Source: a virus. From it: 24,231 nucleotides of DNA. The notes under the pieces are model-generated. The model did not search any database and had not been told where the DNA came from. It worked only from the letters and a program-made list of their open reading frames with translations. Below, piece after piece: positions 15,864-24,231 of the stretch; within the stretch, counting starts at the first letter, position 1; every line of letters begins with the position of its first letter. The DNA lies in IMG/VR virus record IMGVR_UViG_3300023262_000009, positions 1-24,231 of that record; one strand, written 5' to 3'. Made by a program: the position numbers and the translations under genes.

Positions 15864-16295
15864 CTACTTCGAGGATCGCTTCGATCTCTTCCTCTTCATC
15901 TGCCCACCGGCGGACGTGTCGATGCCAGCGGCTTCCATGGCTGCCACTTGCGCCGATCCACTGATCGGCAGCATGCCAGGCATGGGCAGTCCGGCCAGCT
16001 CGGCGGCGCCTGCCGCGGACATCTGCAGCTGGGGGAGCCCTGCCAGGTTGGGCCTGTTGAGCACGATCCGCTGCTGAGCATTGGGAGAGGGGATCATGCC
16101 CGGGGTTCTCATGGGCACCACGCCGTCGCCGTACGGGGTGCTGCGCACCTGCATGGTGGGAGCCAGCCCGTTGGCATTCATCGGGTTGTTCATCTGAAAC
16201 CTCGGCAGCATCCGCGCCGCAGGGTCGATGTGGTGCGAGAACAGTGCCGCGATCTCCGTGGCTTGCTTCTCGTTCATCGGCTCACGGGCGTTCAC
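15864..16295 (-). CDS. Unknown Met/Pro-rich protein, 143 residues
   Basis: The GTG start overlaps the previous stop as GTGA (16292-16295). The N-terminal 30 residues could be one helix (EKQATEIAALFSHHIDPAARML). The rest is rich in Met, Pro, Asn and Ala (FQMNNPMNANGLAPTMQ, LPMPGMLPISG) and therefore flexible. It ends in a basic cluster KRKRSKRSSK. The composition suggests an internal virion or scaffolding-type protein. The family is not recognised. A 23-base gap separates it from the next virion gene. Confidence 0.6.
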   Translation of the reverse strand: MNAREPMNEKQATEIAALFSHHIDPAARMLPRFQMNNPMNANGLAPTMQVRSTPYGDGVVPMRTPGMIPSPNAQQRIVLNRPNLAGLPQLQMSAAGAAELAGLPMPGMLPISGSAQVAAMEAAGIDTSAGGQMKRKRSKRSSK

Positions 16296-17794
16296 AGGAA
16301 GCTCCCTTGCATCATGCGGGGATTCCAGTTGGTGCTGCGCAGGTCAAACTGCGGCTCCTGCTTGGGCCTGCCAGGTCCGCCCCACTCCGGCTGCCACAGC
16401 GGCTCGTCGTCTGGCGCTGTACCGGTGGCCACGGCCGCGCGCTGGCGGGCCTCCTGGGGGCTGGACCCGTTCAGGAGGTCTCCCTGGAACTGGAAGCCGG
16501 AGAGGCCGGAAGCGTCGGCTGGGCTGGACCCGTTCAGGAGGTCTCCCTGGAACTGGAAGCCGGAGAGGCCGGAAGCGTCGGCTGGGTTGGGCGCCGTTGC
16601 TGGCGCTTGCAAGGGAGGAGCCAGCTGCGCAGTGCTGGGATCCCAGGCCGTTGGCGAGAATTCGGCACCTTCGGCGCTGCCGGTGAAGCGAGGCACTCCG
16701 CTGGTGTCGACGAGCGAATCTGCCGCCAGGGCTTCCTTGCTCCAAGGATTCGTGCTGGCCGCCATCGGGCCTCCCGCGAACTGACCGGAGTAGTCAACCA
16801 CGCCAGTGGCGCTCGGCGGCAGGCTGCGCTCAGGGGTCCATCCCAGCTTTCTCGCGAGCTTCTTATTGGCGTTCGCCCATTGCGCCATGTCCGCGGCCTG
16901 CCAGTAGACATCCTGCGTGGGATCGCTGGTGGCCGGCGTGTTCTCGGCGTACAGGTAGCCCATCTTCTGTTCGTAGCGCGCCTTTTGCGCTGCTGCGCCG
17001 CGGTCTTCCGCCGCCTTCTTGACCGTTGCGTTCTGCCATCCTTGGGTGGTAGCCGGGTTCGGAACCACGGGTCCCTGGCCTGGGGCGTTTGTCATACCCT
17101 TCAGGCTGGCCTGAGCGGATTGATTCATCGTCCGCAGCCTCTCCGGCGTGCTGTCGATCGTCAGGCGTCCGGGGGGCTTGCCAGCTGCACCCCCGCTGCT
17201 CGTGGGTGCCGGGGCTTGCCTGACCATGTTCGGCGCCGGCGCGGGCGGGCCATACCGTGCCCCCGCCTGCGGGGCGGGGTTCGGCCGCACGTTGTCGACA
17301 GACGCCCTGCTTCGTCCCTGCATGCGAGGACTCGGCGGGCCGTACTGAGGGCCCGCCTGCGGGGCGGGGTTCGGCCGCACGTTGTCGACAGACGCCCTTG
17401 GCGCCACTCTAGTGAGGCTTGCTCCCTGCATGCGAGGACTCGGCGGGCCCGCCTGCGGGGCGGGGTTCGGCCGCACGTTGTCGATAAACGTCCTCCTTCG
17501 TCCCTGCATGCGAGGACTCGGCGGGCCGTACTGAGGGCCGGCCTGCGGGGCGGGGTTCGGCCGCACGTTGTTGACAGACGCCCTGCTTCGTCCCTGCCTG
17601 CGAGGACTCGCCTGCGGGGCGGGGTTCGGCCGCACGTTGTCGATAAACGTCCTCCTTCGTCCCTGCATGCGAGGACTCGGCGGGCCGGCCTGCGGGGCGG
17701 CCTGCGGGGCGGCCCGCCGGGCGGGGTCTCTTTCGCCGCGTCGGCGTCTAATTCTGCGCTCTGATGGCGTCAGATTTGCCCAGCTGCTTGTCAT
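16292..17794 (-). CDS. Proline/arginine-rich repeat protein
   Basis: 500 residues; ATG at 17794. The first 190 residues consist of degenerate copies of a unit around NVRPNPAPQAG-PQYGPPSPRMQGR and are strongly basic and disordered. The middle (about 215-370) is helical (TPERLRTMNQSAQASLKGM, QKARYEQKMGYLY, DMAQWANANKKLARKLGW). Near the C-terminus a 21-residue unit, PADASGLSGFQFQGDLLNGSS, occurs twice in exact tandem. There is no enzymatic motif. Candidate roles are scaffold, internal core protein or tape-like filler; none is proven. A long plus-strand frame covers most of the same DNA (16244-17764), but the GTGA coupling to the next minus-strand gene and the gene order favour the minus strand. 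Confidence 0.7.
   Translation of the reverse strand: MTSSWANLTPSERRIRRRRGERDPARRAAPQAAPQAGPPSPRMQGRRRTFIDNVRPNPAPQASPRRQGRSRASVNNVRPNPAPQAGPQYGPPSPRMQGRRRTFIDNVRPNPAPQAGPPSPRMQGASLTRVAPRASVDNVRPNPAPQAGPQYGPPSPRMQGRSRASVDNVRPNPAPQAGARYGPPAPAPNMVRQAPAPTSSGGAAGKPPGRLTIDSTPERLRTMNQSAQASLKGMTNAPGQGPVVPNPATTQGWQNATVKKAAEDRGAAAQKARYEQKMGYLYAENTPATSDPTQDVYWQAADMAQWANANKKLARKLGWTPERSLPPSATGVVDYSGQFAGGPMAASTNPWSKEALAADSLVDTSGVPRFTGSAEGAEFSPTAWDPSTAQLAPPLQAPATAPNPADASGLSGFQFQGDLLNGSSPADASGLSGFQFQGDLLNGSSPQEARQRAAVATGTAPDDEPLWQPEWGGPGRPKQEPQFDLRSTNWNPRMMQGSFL
16458..16583 (-). repeat. Exact 63-bp tandem duplication, two copies
   Basis: 16458-16520 and 16521-16583 are identical (offset 63). They encode two copies of a 21-residue unit (PADASGLSGF...DLLNGSS) in the proline-rich protein. 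Exact identity implies a recent slippage or recombination event that kept the frame. Confidence 0.9.
17265..17711 (-). repeat. Interspersed coding repeats in the proline-rich protein
   Basis: The segment GCCTGCGGGGCGGGGTTCGG recurs starting at 17265, 17355, 17451, 17541 and 17610 (spacings 90, 96, 90 and 69), followed by shared CCGCACGTTGT and, further on, GCATGCGAGGACTCGGCGGGCC in most copies. Remnants continue to about 17711. All spacings are multiples of three, so the array is an in-frame protein repeat (NVRPNPAPQAG unit). Confidence 0.88.
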
Positions 17795-19651: not shown

Positions 19652-20806
19652 TCAGTAGATGAAGGAGTACGCGACGGTCACGAAGTCCTTGTTGAGGATC
19701 TCGAAACCAGCCATCAGTTCCCAAACAAGAATAATGAATCGACCGAAGTCGTCATTGTTATTGATGAGGACTTGCGCATCCTGGCCGCCGATGCCAATGC
19801 CGACGGACTGAAGGCCGAAGAAGAGGATCGGAGCGGCGCCGTAGACCTTGCTGCCACCGCCGCCGACAGAGGCGTCGATGTTCGTGGTGAAGCTCTTCTC
19901 GGGCATGTTGGTGCTCTCGAAGAAGCGCACCCCTTCGTAGGGGAAGCCGACCGGCATGACCGGCTGGCCCGCAAGGTTGCCCGTGCCACCGTAGGCAGGG
20001 GTCATGCCCAGGTAAAGGTTGGCGTTGGGAGCCAGCCAGGGCTGGGTGGGATCGATGATCCCTTGGCCGGTCTCGCGGGAAGCAGCCCGGAAGTCAGGAT
20101 CCTGACGCAGGTGCTTCATCGCCACTGGGTCGATGATGCCCCGGTAGAGGCCGTCAGCGAAGGTGGGGACGTTGCGCTTGCGCAGGCCGGTCACGATCTC
20201 CATGAGATCGATCACGGGCGAGAACTTGCCCGACAGATTCGGCGTGCCGGTGTAGGACTCAACCGTGGTGGGGTTGGTCTTGACCTTGCCGTTCGGGAAG
20301 TAGTAGCCACCGCGGTCGTAGTCGGCCGAGCCGTTGGCTTCCGCCTTGAACAGTTCGTCCATCAAGACGCGGTCACGCCAGCGGCGATAGTCGTCGAGAA
20401 GGGTGATGGAGCCCACGCTTTGGTGGAACCGGGTCATGTCCCCGGTGCTGAACAGAAGGCGCTGGGCCTTGATCAGGGTTTCGCGCGAGACCTTGAAGGT
20501 GCTGGGTTGATTGGGATCTTCGGGATCGGCAGGTCCGGTGTACTCAGTCAGGGTGACTGGCACCTTCTCCTTGACAATGCCGCGGGATGAAGCTGTTCCG
20601 ATCTGCTGGTCAGCGGTGCGAGCTCGGGATGCCTTGGTTCCAGGAGATCCCCAGTACCTGTAGCGATCCAGGATCACCGTTTCACCGGGCTGGGCCGCGA
20701 AATCGTGAACGACGGTTGGGTCGATCGCGAGCTCGGCGACATAGGCCGGGTGAGGCCGGTGAAGCTCCGCGCCGATAACAGCAGGAAACTCATTATCGAC
20801 CCACAT
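19652..20806 (-). CDS. Major capsid protein candidate
   Basis: 384 residues; ATG at 20806 with Shine-Dalgarno AGGAG at 8-base spacing. Features expected of an HK97-fold coat of the N4-gp56-like type: an N-terminal arm, ETVILDRYRYWG, a long helix region with KVSRETLIKAQRLLFSTGD, RRWRDRVLMDELFKAEANG, DLMEIVTGLRKRNVPTFADGLYRGIIDP followed by LRQDPDF, then GFPYEGVRFFESTNMP, and a C-terminal strand-rich part (ILFFGLQSVGIGIGG, FGRFIILVWELMAGFEIL). The GLYRGIIDP...LRQDP segment parallels the (Y)xxIIHP...DLRxD motif I recall for such coats. Length and the position at the head of the structural transcript agree. It forms the icosahedral shell. The identification is by pattern and context. No search was run. 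Confidence 0.82.
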   Translation of the reverse strand: MWVDNEFPAVIGAELHRPHPAYVAELAIDPTVVHDFAAQPGETVILDRYRYWGSPGTKASRARTADQQIGTASSRGIVKEKVPVTLTEYTGPADPEDPNQPSTFKVSRETLIKAQRLLFSTGDMTRFHQSVGSITLLDDYRRWRDRVLMDELFKAEANGSADYDRGGYYFPNGKVKTNPTTVESYTGTPNLSGKFSPVIDLMEIVTGLRKRNVPTFADGLYRGIIDPVAMKHLRQDPDFRAASRETGQGIIDPTQPWLAPNANLYLGMTPAYGGTGNLAGQPVMPVGFPYEGVRFFESTNMPEKSFTTNIDASVGGGGSKVYGAAPILFFGLQSVGIGIGGQDAQVLINNNDDFGRFIILVWELMAGFEILNKDFVTVAYSFIY

Positions 20807-20880
20807 GGGCTGAACTCCTGGAGTAAATCAACAAAGAGCGGCACCTTGCGAGCGCCGTGATAGCATCCTAGGAATAATAA
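20807..20880. promoter_or_regulatory. Divergent control region between MCP and LAGLIDADG-like pair
   Basis: Both flanking genes start here and run apart. This is unusually A/T-rich for the window (AATAATAA near 20873, TTTATTATT on the other strand). The minus side has AGGAG at 20815-20819 (8 bases before the MCP ATG). The plus side has AGGA at 20870-20873 (7 bases before the ATG at 20881). A weak extended -10-like TGCTATCAC occurs on the minus strand, and I cannot assign a reliable -35. A late promoter for the capsid transcript is expected in this gap. Confidence 0.5.
20815..20819 (-). promoter_or_regulatory. Shine-Dalgarno site of the major capsid gene
   Basis: AGGAG on the minus strand, 8 bases before the ATG at 20806. 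It fixes the start and fits high expression of a capsid protein. Confidence 0.75.
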
Positions 20881-21528
20881 ATGGGCGAAACGCAAATGGA
20901 CCCCGACGCCTTCCGCTTGATGTTGGGACTTCTCTTTGCTGACGGTTATTTTCACCGCTCTAAGACACCTCGCGGCTTCAAATACAGGGCGACTTTTTTG
21001 GGCGGAATGGGCGAAATGCCACTGCTTCAAGAGAAGCTTTTTGAGGTCCGCAAGTGCTTGCGCACTAATGCAGCCATCGACACCTACGTGGTCGCCCGCA
21101 AGCCACGGAACGGTCCCGACTCTCCTATTCGCAAGAGCGGCACCCGCGTCTGCCGCTTCCGCGTGTCCTCCCGTCACCTCGACGCCTGCTGGCGCGTGCT
21201 GTGCCCTCAGGGTTACCGCCAGATCACCAGCGCCCTTGTCGGAAAGCTCGGTGCCAGGGCAGCCGCCTGGCTCTGGTCGGAGAATGTGCGCCTTCTTCCT
21301 GAGGACGGTGACGGAGACGGTGGCGCCATCCTTCGTCGCGTCGGCCGCACCGGTGAGGAAGCTGAGATCGTCTCGGAATGGCTGGCCCTGCTGACCGGCG
21401 CCCGCTCGCTCATCACCACCGAAGGGCGCACTCCCAGGCTGCTGTTCAGTCGCGGCAGCCGTGAGCTATTGCAGACCGCTCTTCACCCGGTCGCGCCTTT
21501 CTACTCCGGCTGGCTGTTCAAGACGTGA
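20881..21528 (+). CDS. LAGLIDADG-like protein with acidic residues retained
   Basis: 215 residues; ATG at 20881 with AGGA seven bases upstream. The first LAGLIDADG-type helix is FRLMLGLLFADGYF (D21). The second, at 122-136, is KLGARAAAWLWSENVRL, where E134 stands at the catalytic acid position usually filled by D (ALAIWWMDDG in the LAGLIDADG_2 family). After it come the family's beta strand and helix layout (GGAILRRVGR, EIVSEWLALLTGARS, TPRLLFSRGSRELLQTAL) and an ending FYSGWLFK like the usual PSMxYK. Known function of the family: homing endonuclease that cleaves a long asymmetric site. It is translationally coupled (GTGA) to a degenerate paralog. It diverges from the capsid gene, so it could be a homing element or a regulator of that promoter. 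Confidence 0.7.
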   Translation: MGETQMDPDAFRLMLGLLFADGYFHRSKTPRGFKYRATFLGGMGEMPLLQEKLFEVRKCLRTNAAIDTYVVARKPRNGPDSPIRKSGTRVCRFRVSSRHLDACWRVLCPQGYRQITSALVGKLGARAAAWLWSENVRLLPEDGDGDGGAILRRVGRTGEEAEIVSEWLALLTGARSLITTEGRTPRLLFSRGSRELLQTALHPVAPFYSGWLFKT

Positions 21529-22205
21529 GCTCCGACTTCGCCCACCTGGTCGCCCGCTGCGTGCTGGGGCTTGGCAATCTTGAGCGCAAGGGATCCCTGC
21601 AGCGCCCCTGGCTCACCCTGGTCAGGTCCGGCGGAGAGCTCGCCTATCTGCGACACCTCCATGTTCAGCTGCGCCGGCTTTGCAGTGGTCAGTACAGGTC
21701 TCAGCTGGACTGGATCCCCGGGACCAGTGGCGGAGATATGGCCAGGCTGCGCTTCCACTCAGAAGAGCTCGAGGGGTTGATCGGCCGGCCCCCTGCTGAG
21801 CTCTGGCGCCTCTGCTCTTCTTGTGATCGCCAGGGGTTGGGCCACCTCACGGCTGTCCTCTGGCTGGACCGAGGCGGTTGGCGCCCTGTCGGCCGAGGCG
21901 GCTTGATCTGGGCTCGCACCAGTGATGACATTTTCAAACCCCTTGACCTGCTACGTCTTCACTCGGTTATCGGCGCCAAGCCCGGCAATGGAGGCGGCAG
22001 GCGCAGCGGCTATCAGGCCATCCTCGTGCCGGAGTCCGGCATGCGCTCATTGCTTCGACTGCTCCGCCCTTCGTGCCACCCCAGCATGCTGGGGTGCCTA
22101 CGCCGGCAGCAGCCAGGGGTCAGGCATGGGCTGATGGCGCTCAGAGAGGAGAGGGGGCCGTCGTCCACCAGCCTGCTTCGGGAGGCTATCGGCTTCCTAC
22201 CGTAG
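21525..22205 (+). CDS. Degenerate LAGLIDADG-like paralog
   Basis: 226 residues; the GTG overlaps the previous stop (GTGA, 21525-21528). The outline matches the LAGLIDADG_2 family. The first motif is LVARCVLGLGNLERKGS (residues 8-24), where L16 replaces the catalytic acid. The second is GHLTAVLWLDRGGW (106-119), where D115-R116 replaces DDG. It is followed by LIWARTSDDIFKPLDLLRLHSVIG, YQAILVPESGMRSLLRLLRP and HPSMLG (185-190), the classic C-terminal ending. Both catalytic positions are lost, so it should bind but not cut, if it binds at all. It could be a dead homing endonuclease or a DNA-binding partner or regulator (compare WhiA, a bacterial regulator derived from this fold). A 20-bp palindrome lies over the HPSMLG codons. 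Confidence 0.62.
   Translation: MSSDFAHLVARCVLGLGNLERKGSLQRPWLTLVRSGGELAYLRHLHVQLRRLCSGQYRSQLDWIPGTSGGDMARLRFHSEELEGLIGRPPAELWRLCSSCDRQGLGHLTAVLWLDRGGWRPVGRGGLIWARTSDDIFKPLDLLRLHSVIGAKPGNGGGRRSGYQAILVPESGMRSLLRLLRPSCHPSMLGCLRRQQPGVRHGLMALREERGPSSTSLLREAIGFLP
22077..22096. repeat. Perfect 20-bp palindrome inside the LAGLIDADG-like gene
   Basis: CACCCCAGCA followed directly by its exact reverse complement TGCTGGGGTG. It covers the codons for the conserved HPSMLG segment. Palindromes of this length are unlikely by chance in 24 kb, although the gene's G+C raises the odds. It could be a two-fold binding site or a hairpin. Confidence 0.8.
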
Positions 22206-22225: not shown

Positions 22226-23032
22226 ATGCCAGTCGATCAGTACGGCCGAGACCCCGCGCCACTGCGCAGTCTCTACGGGGGCAGCTACACCTCAAGCGGT
22301 AGTCACAACGACACCCGGCTGCCACTCAACAAGAGCCCTCAGACGCCGGAACTCTTAGGCGTTCTCGGCGTTGGTCTCCATCGCATCGAGGGGCTGATCG
22401 GCTCCCAGTCCGGGGCAGCCACTCGCTTTTACGAGTTCGAGACCGCGGCACCATCGCGCATCCGCTTGCGCCCTGTCTCGGTCAATGCGTTCACCAGCCC
22501 ACGGGTCCAATGGGCCTTGCGCCGCGTTGACGGCGGTGACGGCGTAATGCTCGAAGATCTCCAGCTGCAGTCCCGCAACCAAGAAGGTACTGGCCAGAGT
22601 GGTTTCCTGATTCAGCCCGGCAGGTTCCGGGTCACCGTGTCGACCTCGGGCTGGTATCAGCTGCCGTTCGTCGCCGACCTGGACCTTCGGGAGCCTGTCG
22701 TCATTGGCTCCGGAGAAAGCTCCGACCTCGCCAACACTGTCGCCACGCTCGAGCTTGATGTCGATGTCAGGCTGAACTACCCCTTGCTCCTACCTGCTTC
22801 CGGGGACGCGGCGGAATCTCTGGGCCAGGAGTTCGTGCTCGACTTCACCGCCGTCCTGCAACGAACAGTCCTCCTGCCAGTCGTGCTCTTCTTCTCCTAT
22901 GTGCGGGACGACTACTGGGAGTTCGGCTACGCGGAAGGGGACGGAGATTCGATCACCGACAGCGAGCTTGTCGCAAACGCGATCCTCGAGATCACAGCAT
23001 CCCTCTCTGTGACCACGCCGTCCAGTCCGTAG
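22226..23032 (+). CDS. Virion-type protein, 268 residues, unknown
   Basis: ATG at 22226, 20 bases after the previous stop, is preferred over an upstream in-frame start at 22073 that lies inside the LAGLIDADG-like gene. The product is beta-rich: LLGVLGVGLHRIEGLIGSQ, TRFYEFETAAPSRIRLRPV, RFRVTVSTSGWYQLPFVADLDL, EFVLDFTAVLQRTVLLPVVLFFSYVRDDYW. The C-terminus ends ILEITASLSVTTPSSP. The composition resembles jelly-roll or fibre-type virion proteins. There is no recognisable enzymatic motif. It is followed at once by another virion-type gene, and I infer a tail or capsid-surface role. Confidence 0.62.
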   Translation: MPVDQYGRDPAPLRSLYGGSYTSSGSHNDTRLPLNKSPQTPELLGVLGVGLHRIEGLIGSQSGAATRFYEFETAAPSRIRLRPVSVNAFTSPRVQWALRRVDGGDGVMLEDLQLQSRNQEGTGQSGFLIQPGRFRVTVSTSGWYQLPFVADLDLREPVVIGSGESSDLANTVATLELDVDVRLNYPLLLPASGDAAESLGQEFVLDFTAVLQRTVLLPVVLFFSYVRDDYWEFGYAEGDGDSITDSELVANAILEITASLSVTTPSSP

Positions 23033-23060: not shown

Positions 23061-23492
23061 ATGGCCTTTTCAGATGCCTTGGCCAATTCCCTGCTGGGGT
23101 GGTTCAAGGGCTCCGCTTTCGTCACAGCCCCCTCCACTACTCTGCACCTCAGTCTTCACACAGGTGAGCCCGGGCCGGCCGGCACTCAAAGCGACGTCAC
23201 AACGGCAGTGGCGGGCGGGCGGGCGGCTATGCCGGTCGCCGACTTGGGGGCCATTGGCTCTGACGCTGCTGGCGGTCGGGTGATCTCCGTGGAAGCGATC
23301 GTCAACTTCACCAACTCCGCCCTGGCTATCGGGCAGATCTCTCACGTCGGTATCTGGAGTGCGGCCAGCGCCGGCACCTTTTACGCCGGTGCCGCCTTGA
23401 CTCAGTCAGCCAGTGTGCAGGTGGGTGACATCGTCAGGATCCCGATCGGCGGACTCCGGCTCCGGGCTGTCGGCTACATGCCTCCGCCTTGA
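23061..23492 (+). CDS. Small phage virion protein, gp80/tail-fibre-like family
   Basis: 143 residues; ATG at 23061. Its features match a widespread family of small phage structural proteins annotated as tail fibre or gp80-like: the opening MAFSDALANSLLGWFKG, TLHLSLHTGEPGPAG, GRAAMPVADLGAIG, then VNFTNSALAIGQISHVGIWSAAS and AGAALTQSASVQVGDIVRIPIGGLRL near the end. The family folds as a beta-sandwich associated with the tail or head surface. The name is a family resemblance from memory. The gene ends 2 bases before the convergent lysozyme-transpeptidase gene. Confidence 0.7.
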   Translation: MAFSDALANSLLGWFKGSAFVTAPSTTLHLSLHTGEPGPAGTQSDVTTAVAGGRAAMPVADLGAIGSDAAGGRVISVEAIVNFTNSALAIGQISHVGIWSAASAGTFYAGAALTQSASVQVGDIVRIPIGGLRLRAVGYMPPP

Positions 23493-23493
23493 T

Positions 23494-24231
23494 TCAGCCG
23501 GGCTGGTAGACGCCTACGAACAACTTCCCTTTGCGCGCCAGGGGCATGACCTTGTCGCGGAGATCCATGTTGCGCATGCGGACACAGCCAAGGGTCGCGT
23601 ACAGCGGCTGCTTCGGTTTCCAGGCCCCGGGCCAGCCGGCTCCAGTCCCGCCACCGTGAATCATGATCCCGGCCCGCCCGAAACCGGCCTCCTGGTTTTC
23701 CATTTCCACCAGGTCTAGGGAATACCAGCCGTACGAGCGACGCACTCTTGAGAATGTCTCGCTGGAGTCCTGCTCGTAGTCCGCATGTAGCTGGCCGACC
23801 CGGTAGAGGCCGGGAGGAGTGTCCCCTCGTGACATCTTCCAGTCCTCGACCTGCCCGTGGCACAGGGCCGGGATCACCCAGAGAAAGCGACCTGCCGAGT
23901 CATAAGCTCTGGCCGCGTTCGCCTTGCCATTCACCAGCAGGTAATGATCACCGTCGGCCAGTGGCGCGGGGATCTTGGGGCCAACGAGACCCTTCTCTGC
24001 TTCCGTCACCCAGCTCAGGGTGCTGGACTGCCTGGGCCCAGCCCCCACTGGGCCCGTCGGAGCAGGGACCGGTTGCGGCGGTGGCGGTGCTGCTACGCCC
24101 AGGGTGGCCGCAAAGATGTTCTCGAGGCTGGCGAACGATTTGACCGGCTGACCGTAGAAGCTCTTGCCAGCAAGGGTGGGCAGGCTGGCCCATTCCGGAG
24201 CAAGCTTCGCCACGTTCGACTTGGTGAACTT
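23494..24231 (-). CDS. Lysozyme C-terminus fused to L,D-transpeptidase-like domain (partial)
   Basis: The frame is open to the right window edge, so the N-terminus is missing. The first visible part (SNVAKLAPEWASLPTLAGKSFYGQPVK) matches the end of the lysozyme domain at 12.9-13.0 kb, so an upstream lambda-R-like domain is expected outside. A Pro/Ala-rich linker follows, then a YkuD-type domain: HYLLVNGKANAARAYDSAGRFLWVIPA, GDTPPGLYRVGQL, GIMIHGGG, and TLGCVRMRNMDL containing the catalytic-type cysteine. The usual SHGC(V/I)R reads TLGCVR, so the second histidine is replaced by leucine. It may still bind peptidoglycan. Known function: cross-linking peptidoglycan peptides; in a phage it may act at the cell wall during entry or lysis. 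Confidence 0.78.
   Translation of the reverse strand, partial: KFTKSNVAKLAPEWASLPTLAGKSFYGQPVKSFASLENIFAATLGVAAPPPPQPVPAPTGPVGAGPRQSSTLSWVTEAEKGLVGPKIPAPLADGDHYLLVNGKANAARAYDSAGRFLWVIPALCHGQVEDWKMSRGDTPPGLYRVGQLHADYEQDSSETFSRVRRSYGWYSLDLVEMENQEAGFGRAGIMIHGGGTGAGWPGAWKPKQPLYATLGCVRMRNMDLRDKVMPLARKGKLFVGVYQPG

Follow-up and report, generated by a model that had tools for sequence, protein, structure and literature searches.

Two overlapping genes of the LAGLIDADG family, here called p1 and p2, diverge from the major capsid protein (MCP) gene of a phage contig and are conserved as a unit at that place in related phages. p1 is a single-chain protein with two motifs that hold a complete putative active site, whereas p2 is its catalytically dead paralogue. 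The explanation that we favour, and to which we give about half of our confidence, is that the pair makes up a homing-type module, free-standing and fixed next to the MCP gene, in which the nuclease p1 has an anciently duplicated, obligate dead partner.

The window, i.e. the whole 24.2-kb stretch of DNA analysed, is an IMG/VR virus contig; two near-identical shorter contigs were also found. The phage is probably a cyanophage of the S-EIV1-related lineage, its capsid protein and that of cyanophage S-EIV1 sharing 58% identity. Since this is the sole isolate matched by the capsid protein, we can only infer Synechococcus as the host. The features that matter here are the following:

19652-20806, minus strand: MCP gene, uninterrupted in the window (phrog_1357, E 3.9e-14)
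20807-20880: divergent intergenic region between the MCP gene and p1
20881-21528, plus strand: p1, two-motif LAGLIDADG protein and putative active nuclease (215 aa, ATG start)
20920-20946, plus strand: p1 motif 1, LGLLFADG, with the catalytic Asp D21 at 20941-20943
21259-21291, plus strand: p1 motif 2, AAAWLWSENVR, with Glu E134 at 21280-21282
21525-21528, plus strand: overlap of the p1 stop and p2 start, GTGA
21525-22205, plus strand: p2, dead LAGLIDADG paralogue of p1 (226 aa, GTG start)
21549-21575, plus strand: p2 equivalent of motif 1, without an acid (L16)
21843-21878, plus strand: p2 equivalent of motif 2, LTAVLWLDRGG, with D115 before the catalytic position and R116 in it
22226-23032, plus strand: p3, which follows p2 in the divergent operon and is found at the same place in relatives
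23061-23492, plus strand: gp80-like head/fibre protein (PF23140, E 1.4e-23)

Third-position GC is coding-like in both p1 (0.73) and p2 (0.77). Elsewhere in the window, a gene with an L,D-transpeptidase (YkuD) domain occupies 23494-24213 at the contig end, on the strand opposite to the gp80-like gene, and positions 17244-17712 contain internal DNA repeats, 77-87% identical, inside a 500-aa minus-strand gene (16292-17794).

As single sequences, the window p1 and p2 match nothing in Pfam, NCBIfam, PHROGs or PDB, and the assignment to the LAGLIDADG family therefore rests on their relatives and on structure. A motif scan of IMG/VR yielded two loci with both genes at the same place, and an alignment of three p1 sequences then led to 73 loci. 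When matches with E up to 1 are counted, the Pfam LAGLIDADG_2 profile (PF03161) is matched by 37 of 38 p1, 23 of 39 p2 and all four intron-borne relatives. The same profile was not found in 36 records comprising the window and 35 MCP relatives, because those relatives are the group that lacks p1-p2. Phage isolates likewise yielded no usable match to the single sequences; one in Escherichia phage Sa157lw (E 3) was discarded since by eye it does not look LAGLIDADG-like. Three marine metagenome-assembled contigs labelled Euryarchaeota and Phycisphaerae (L446, L447, L448) carry p1 relatives; they are probably misbinned phage contigs.

A single HMM recovers both p1 and p2, and a profile-profile alignment of one with the other by hhalign scores 98.7% (E 2.9e-16). 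Compared in the same manner with intron-type LAGLIDADG proteins, p1 reaches 99.3% and p2 99.2%. AlphaFold2 models of the two (pLDDT 93.1 for p1, 85.2 for p2) have the LAGLIDADG fold, as judged with Foldseek against solved structures in the PDB. The p1 model matches I-WcaI (E 9.8e-10), I-SceI and the bI3 maturase, and that of p2 matches I-WcaI (E 9.2e-6), I-DmoI and WhiA. Thus the proposal of the earlier note that both proteins are LAGLIDADG_2-like is borne out by the profile matches of the relatives and by the models. In a tree, p1 and p2 each form one clade (SH-aLRT 100 and 98%), apart from the intron-borne relatives. p1 and p2 are derived from a single ancient duplication.

An active LAGLIDADG endonuclease has an acid ending each of its two motifs, and p1 has both, D21 and E134, as the earlier note had read them in the window translation. 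Among nonredundant relatives, the motif-1 Asp is kept in 37 of 38 p1 proteins and the motif-2 Glu in 38 of 38. Motif 2 follows the pattern W-A-E-G, as in the VAEG of I-DmoI (E117), giving an I-DmoI-like D/E pair; the set D21, E134 and R137 of p1 resembles D21, E117 and K120 of I-DmoI. The window p1 is itself divergent, with N135 where most relatives have G, which speaks against its being part of a homing module. The register of p1 motif 2 relative to the intron-borne proteins shifts by one residue between alignments; under either register p2 is without a motif-1 acid. The sole p1 in the table without the motif-1 Asp, that of L190 (5986-6612), has Ser instead, and its motif-2 Glu is not followed by the usual basic residue; with both gone, it is probably decaying.

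The p2 residues given in the earlier note (L16, D115-R116, and HPSM at 185) are also as described. A motif-1 acid is present in none of 39 nonredundant p2 relatives, where K (15) and R (6) are the commonest residues, followed by others. In motif 2, the p2 profile LW-l-d-q-G aligns with LYVAEG of I-DmoI, a weak match (E 0.056), so that the conserved Asp of p2 (D115 in the window) lies one residue ahead of the catalytic position. The p2 residue aligned with E117 of I-DmoI is Q, R or another, and acidic in none. Hence the pairing of a catalytic with a dead protein holds across the relatives: the acids are kept in p1, whereas p2 has lost both of them.

The earlier note went further and suggested a heterodimer with one active half-site, acting as a nicking enzyme to which each protein contributes a half-site. 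The active/dead pairing, the gene overlap and the co-inheritance are compatible with a complex. However, p2 supplies no acid, and p1 is complete by itself, having two motifs and both acids in one chain; its model resembles a monomeric enzyme such as I-SceI. Because p1 itself carries both motifs and acids, we regard a heterodimeric nickase as very improbable.

The coupling of the two genes is also conserved. In 35 of 36 relatives the start of p2 lies no further downstream than the p1 stop codon, the overlap being 4 nt in the branch of the window and roughly 64-172 nt in most others. Distances among p1 proteins correlate with those among p2 proteins (r 0.71, pairwise distances being non-independent). 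In most close pairs dN/dS is about 0.03-0.14 for both genes, with higher values in some diverged pairs; p1 and p2 are under purifying selection. Both genes are at the same place in 69 of 72 rows found through p1, the window included, and the other three are cut by contig ends. Among 79 loci found through an uninterrupted MCP, 27 have the pair, 51 have neither gene and one has a p1 truncated where the contig ends; in both counts some loci are near-copies of one another or come from one contig. No relative with room for both genes has just one of them, and both folds match LAGLIDADG structures, so that neither outcome named in the earlier note as a refutation was obtained. The coupling of the pair and its position facing the capsid gene, both remarked on in that note, are conserved: wherever relatives carry p1-p2, the pair is divergent from the MCP gene.

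The pair is present in some relatives and absent from others, and its state changes only about four times on the MCP tree. Long vertical inheritance together with low dN/dS suggests that the pair benefits the phage and does not simply spread selfishly. A homing gene that is purely selfish would not usually show such stable inheritance and strong purifying selection, which in this respect argue against the favoured explanation. The invariant position between the MCP and fibre genes and the strong constraint are also what one would expect if the pair had been domesticated for a role in the virion or its assembly, e.g. by replacing another gene on the MCP side, nuclease activity being secondary. 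Yet relatives with 60-70% identical MCP do without the pair and the catalytic acids of p1 are near-invariant, so we give scant credence to a virion role.

The fixed place at a divergent promoter region bears on another proposal, in which the MCP and p1 promoters would be controlled through DNA binding by the pair or by p2 on its own; the earlier note had raised it for the dead partner and the capsid promoter. Among the fold matches of p2 is WhiA, a transcription factor with a dead LAGLIDADG domain, and p2 likewise has no acids. But p2, at 226 aa, consists of little more than its LAGLIDADG domain and lacks the separate DNA-binding domain that is added in WhiA. Within 20807-20880, some 50 nt upstream of the MCP gene, lies a hairpin that is common to phages with and without the pair; its arms vary in step between phages. 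As the hairpin is found irrespective of the pair, support for its role as an operator was not obtained. p2 contains a perfect 20-bp palindrome, CACCCCAGCATGCTGGGGTG, at window positions 22077-22096, of a kind that is rare (0.003 per kb across loci). In the p2 genes of relatives no palindrome of at least 16 bp was found, thus no counterpart to it, and its candidacy as an operator was likewise dropped. The retention of both acids in p1 also argues against a regulator, as does the different nuclease-type gene that fills the slot in other phages. Regulation of the divergent promoters by a WhiA-like protein is, in our estimate, distinctly unlikely.

That other gene is of the HNH_3/NUMOD4 type. It occupies the slot beside the MCP gene in 47 of the 79 MCP-picked loci, and in none of these does it occur together with the pair. 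The HNH_3/NUMOD4-type genes are found mostly where p1-p2 is absent and some are degenerate (examples are L313:4510-4893, L325:4123-4650 and L216:5368-5892). The HNH gene in the slot and the introns of the MCP gene point to homing biology.

A search of the window for group I introns gave none. In relatives, the MCP gene is split at about residues 4, 7, 36-48, 88-108, 132-139, 217-235 and 283-293, and many of the insertions match Rfam group I introns. Within the lineage the load is one to four or more introns per gene, at about eight positions; to our knowledge, this places the MCP gene of the S-EIV1-related lineage among the most intron-laden phage genes. Intron-bearing loci include L192, L193, L196, L202, L209, L213, L216, L240, L241 and L244, among others. 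The insertions contain a p1/p2-family LAGLIDADG protein on the MCP strand, an antisense LAGLIDADG_3 ORF, or no ORF; the antisense homing-type ORFs are exemplified by L210:1475-2419, L236:4223-5230, L240:1140-2267 and L241:3666-4556.

In locus sets that are neutral with respect to introns, internal ORF-less MCP introns occur at 20 of 69 loci with the pair and at 0 of 49 without it; in nonredundant form the contrast is 9 of 22 versus 0 of 37 (Fisher p 4e-5). These sets replaced those of a first association test, which was discarded since its negative set had been chosen on an uninterrupted MCP and was biased. N-terminal MCP introns without a LAGLIDADG ORF are associated with an HNH neighbour, being found in 7 of 20 loci with an HNH neighbour versus 4 of 52 (p 0.008). 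They occur without the pair, mostly beside HNH, and a broader proposal that ORF-less introns at any position need p1-p2 was dropped. A phylogeny-controlled test on the MCP tree yields a single independent contrast; given this and the approximately four state changes of the pair, the association between introns and pair may reflect shared descent, which also weighs against a homing module.

LAGLIDADG maturases exist, and p1-p2 could be of this kind, acting in trans as splicing factors for those MCP group I introns that have no ORF, while p1 may stay active as a nuclease. The bI3 maturase is among the best fold matches of p1, internal ORF-less introns were detected only in phages with the pair, and p2 is conserved although dead. 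However, no MCP intron was detected in the majority of phages with p1-p2, the window among them, indicating that introns are not the sole reason for keeping the pair; this goes against the homing module as well. Besides, the near-invariant nuclease acids of p1 would be unnecessary for splicing and N-terminal ORF-less introns are found without the pair. We consider trans-acting maturases unlikely, if still worth keeping in view. A wider proposal deserves somewhat more weight and seems to us possible, although doubtful. It assumes an obligate two-protein LAGLIDADG system in which the dead paralogue steers or controls the nuclease and which would serve trans homing or splicing of many ORF-less MCP introns as well as capsid-allele exclusion when phages co-infect.

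According to the favoured homing-module explanation, p1, aided by p2, would cut the DNA of co-infecting relatives at their MCP alleles or in the MCP flank, p2 having been retained as a binding or assembly partner of p1. Recombination repair would then copy the p1-p2 side of the locus into the recipient, by intronless or collaborative homing, together with any group I intron without an ORF that sits where the cut was made. Cutting by p1-p2 may also exclude rival capsid alleles.

A precedent is F-CphI of cyanophage S-PM2, a free-standing endonuclease encoded beside the intron-bearing psbA gene, which can serve an intron that does not encode it, i.e. collaborative homing (PMC6083498). The same arrangement, a free-standing endonuclease gene adjoining one that carries ORF-less group I introns, is seen in many relatives, though not in the window, where the MCP gene is uninterrupted. 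F-CphI, however, is an Endo VII-type enzyme encoded by a single gene, with one intron site and demonstrated cleavage (PMC6083498), whereas p1-p2 comprises two LAGLIDADG proteins of which one is dead, goes with many intron sites, and has only putative cleavage activity. Islands of homing endonuclease genes (HEGs) bracket essential phage genes, including capsid neighbourhoods, and like p1-p2 they adjoin structural genes and are accompanied by introns, according to the part of that account drawn on here (PMC10448857). In the same part, the islands are mostly of T5orf172 and HNH types, LAGLIDADG being rare (at least 8 of 20 intein-borne), and no dead paralogue is described (PMC10448857).

In its fold and its two motifs per chain, p1 resembles I-DmoI and I-SceI/I-WcaI, but these are single intron-encoded proteins while p1 is free-standing and always accompanied by p2. 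WhiA and bI3-type maturases offer a different likeness, that of a LAGLIDADG fold serving uses other than DNA cutting; we know of no pairing of either with an active paralogue. The open PMC literature, a scope that excludes subscription papers and the S-EIV1 paper, yielded neither a description of a live/dead LAGLIDADG pair nor an account of the capsid introns of this lineage.

The natural LAGLIDADG enzymes known to us consist either of one chain or of a homodimer. Beside these, a live/dead pair that is conserved would be a new LAGLIDADG architecture and a natural model of a dead paralogue tuning a meganuclease. With an intron-laden MCP gene and an HNH-type gene in the same slot, the question of why introns and free-standing endonucleases settle by essential phage genes becomes testable.
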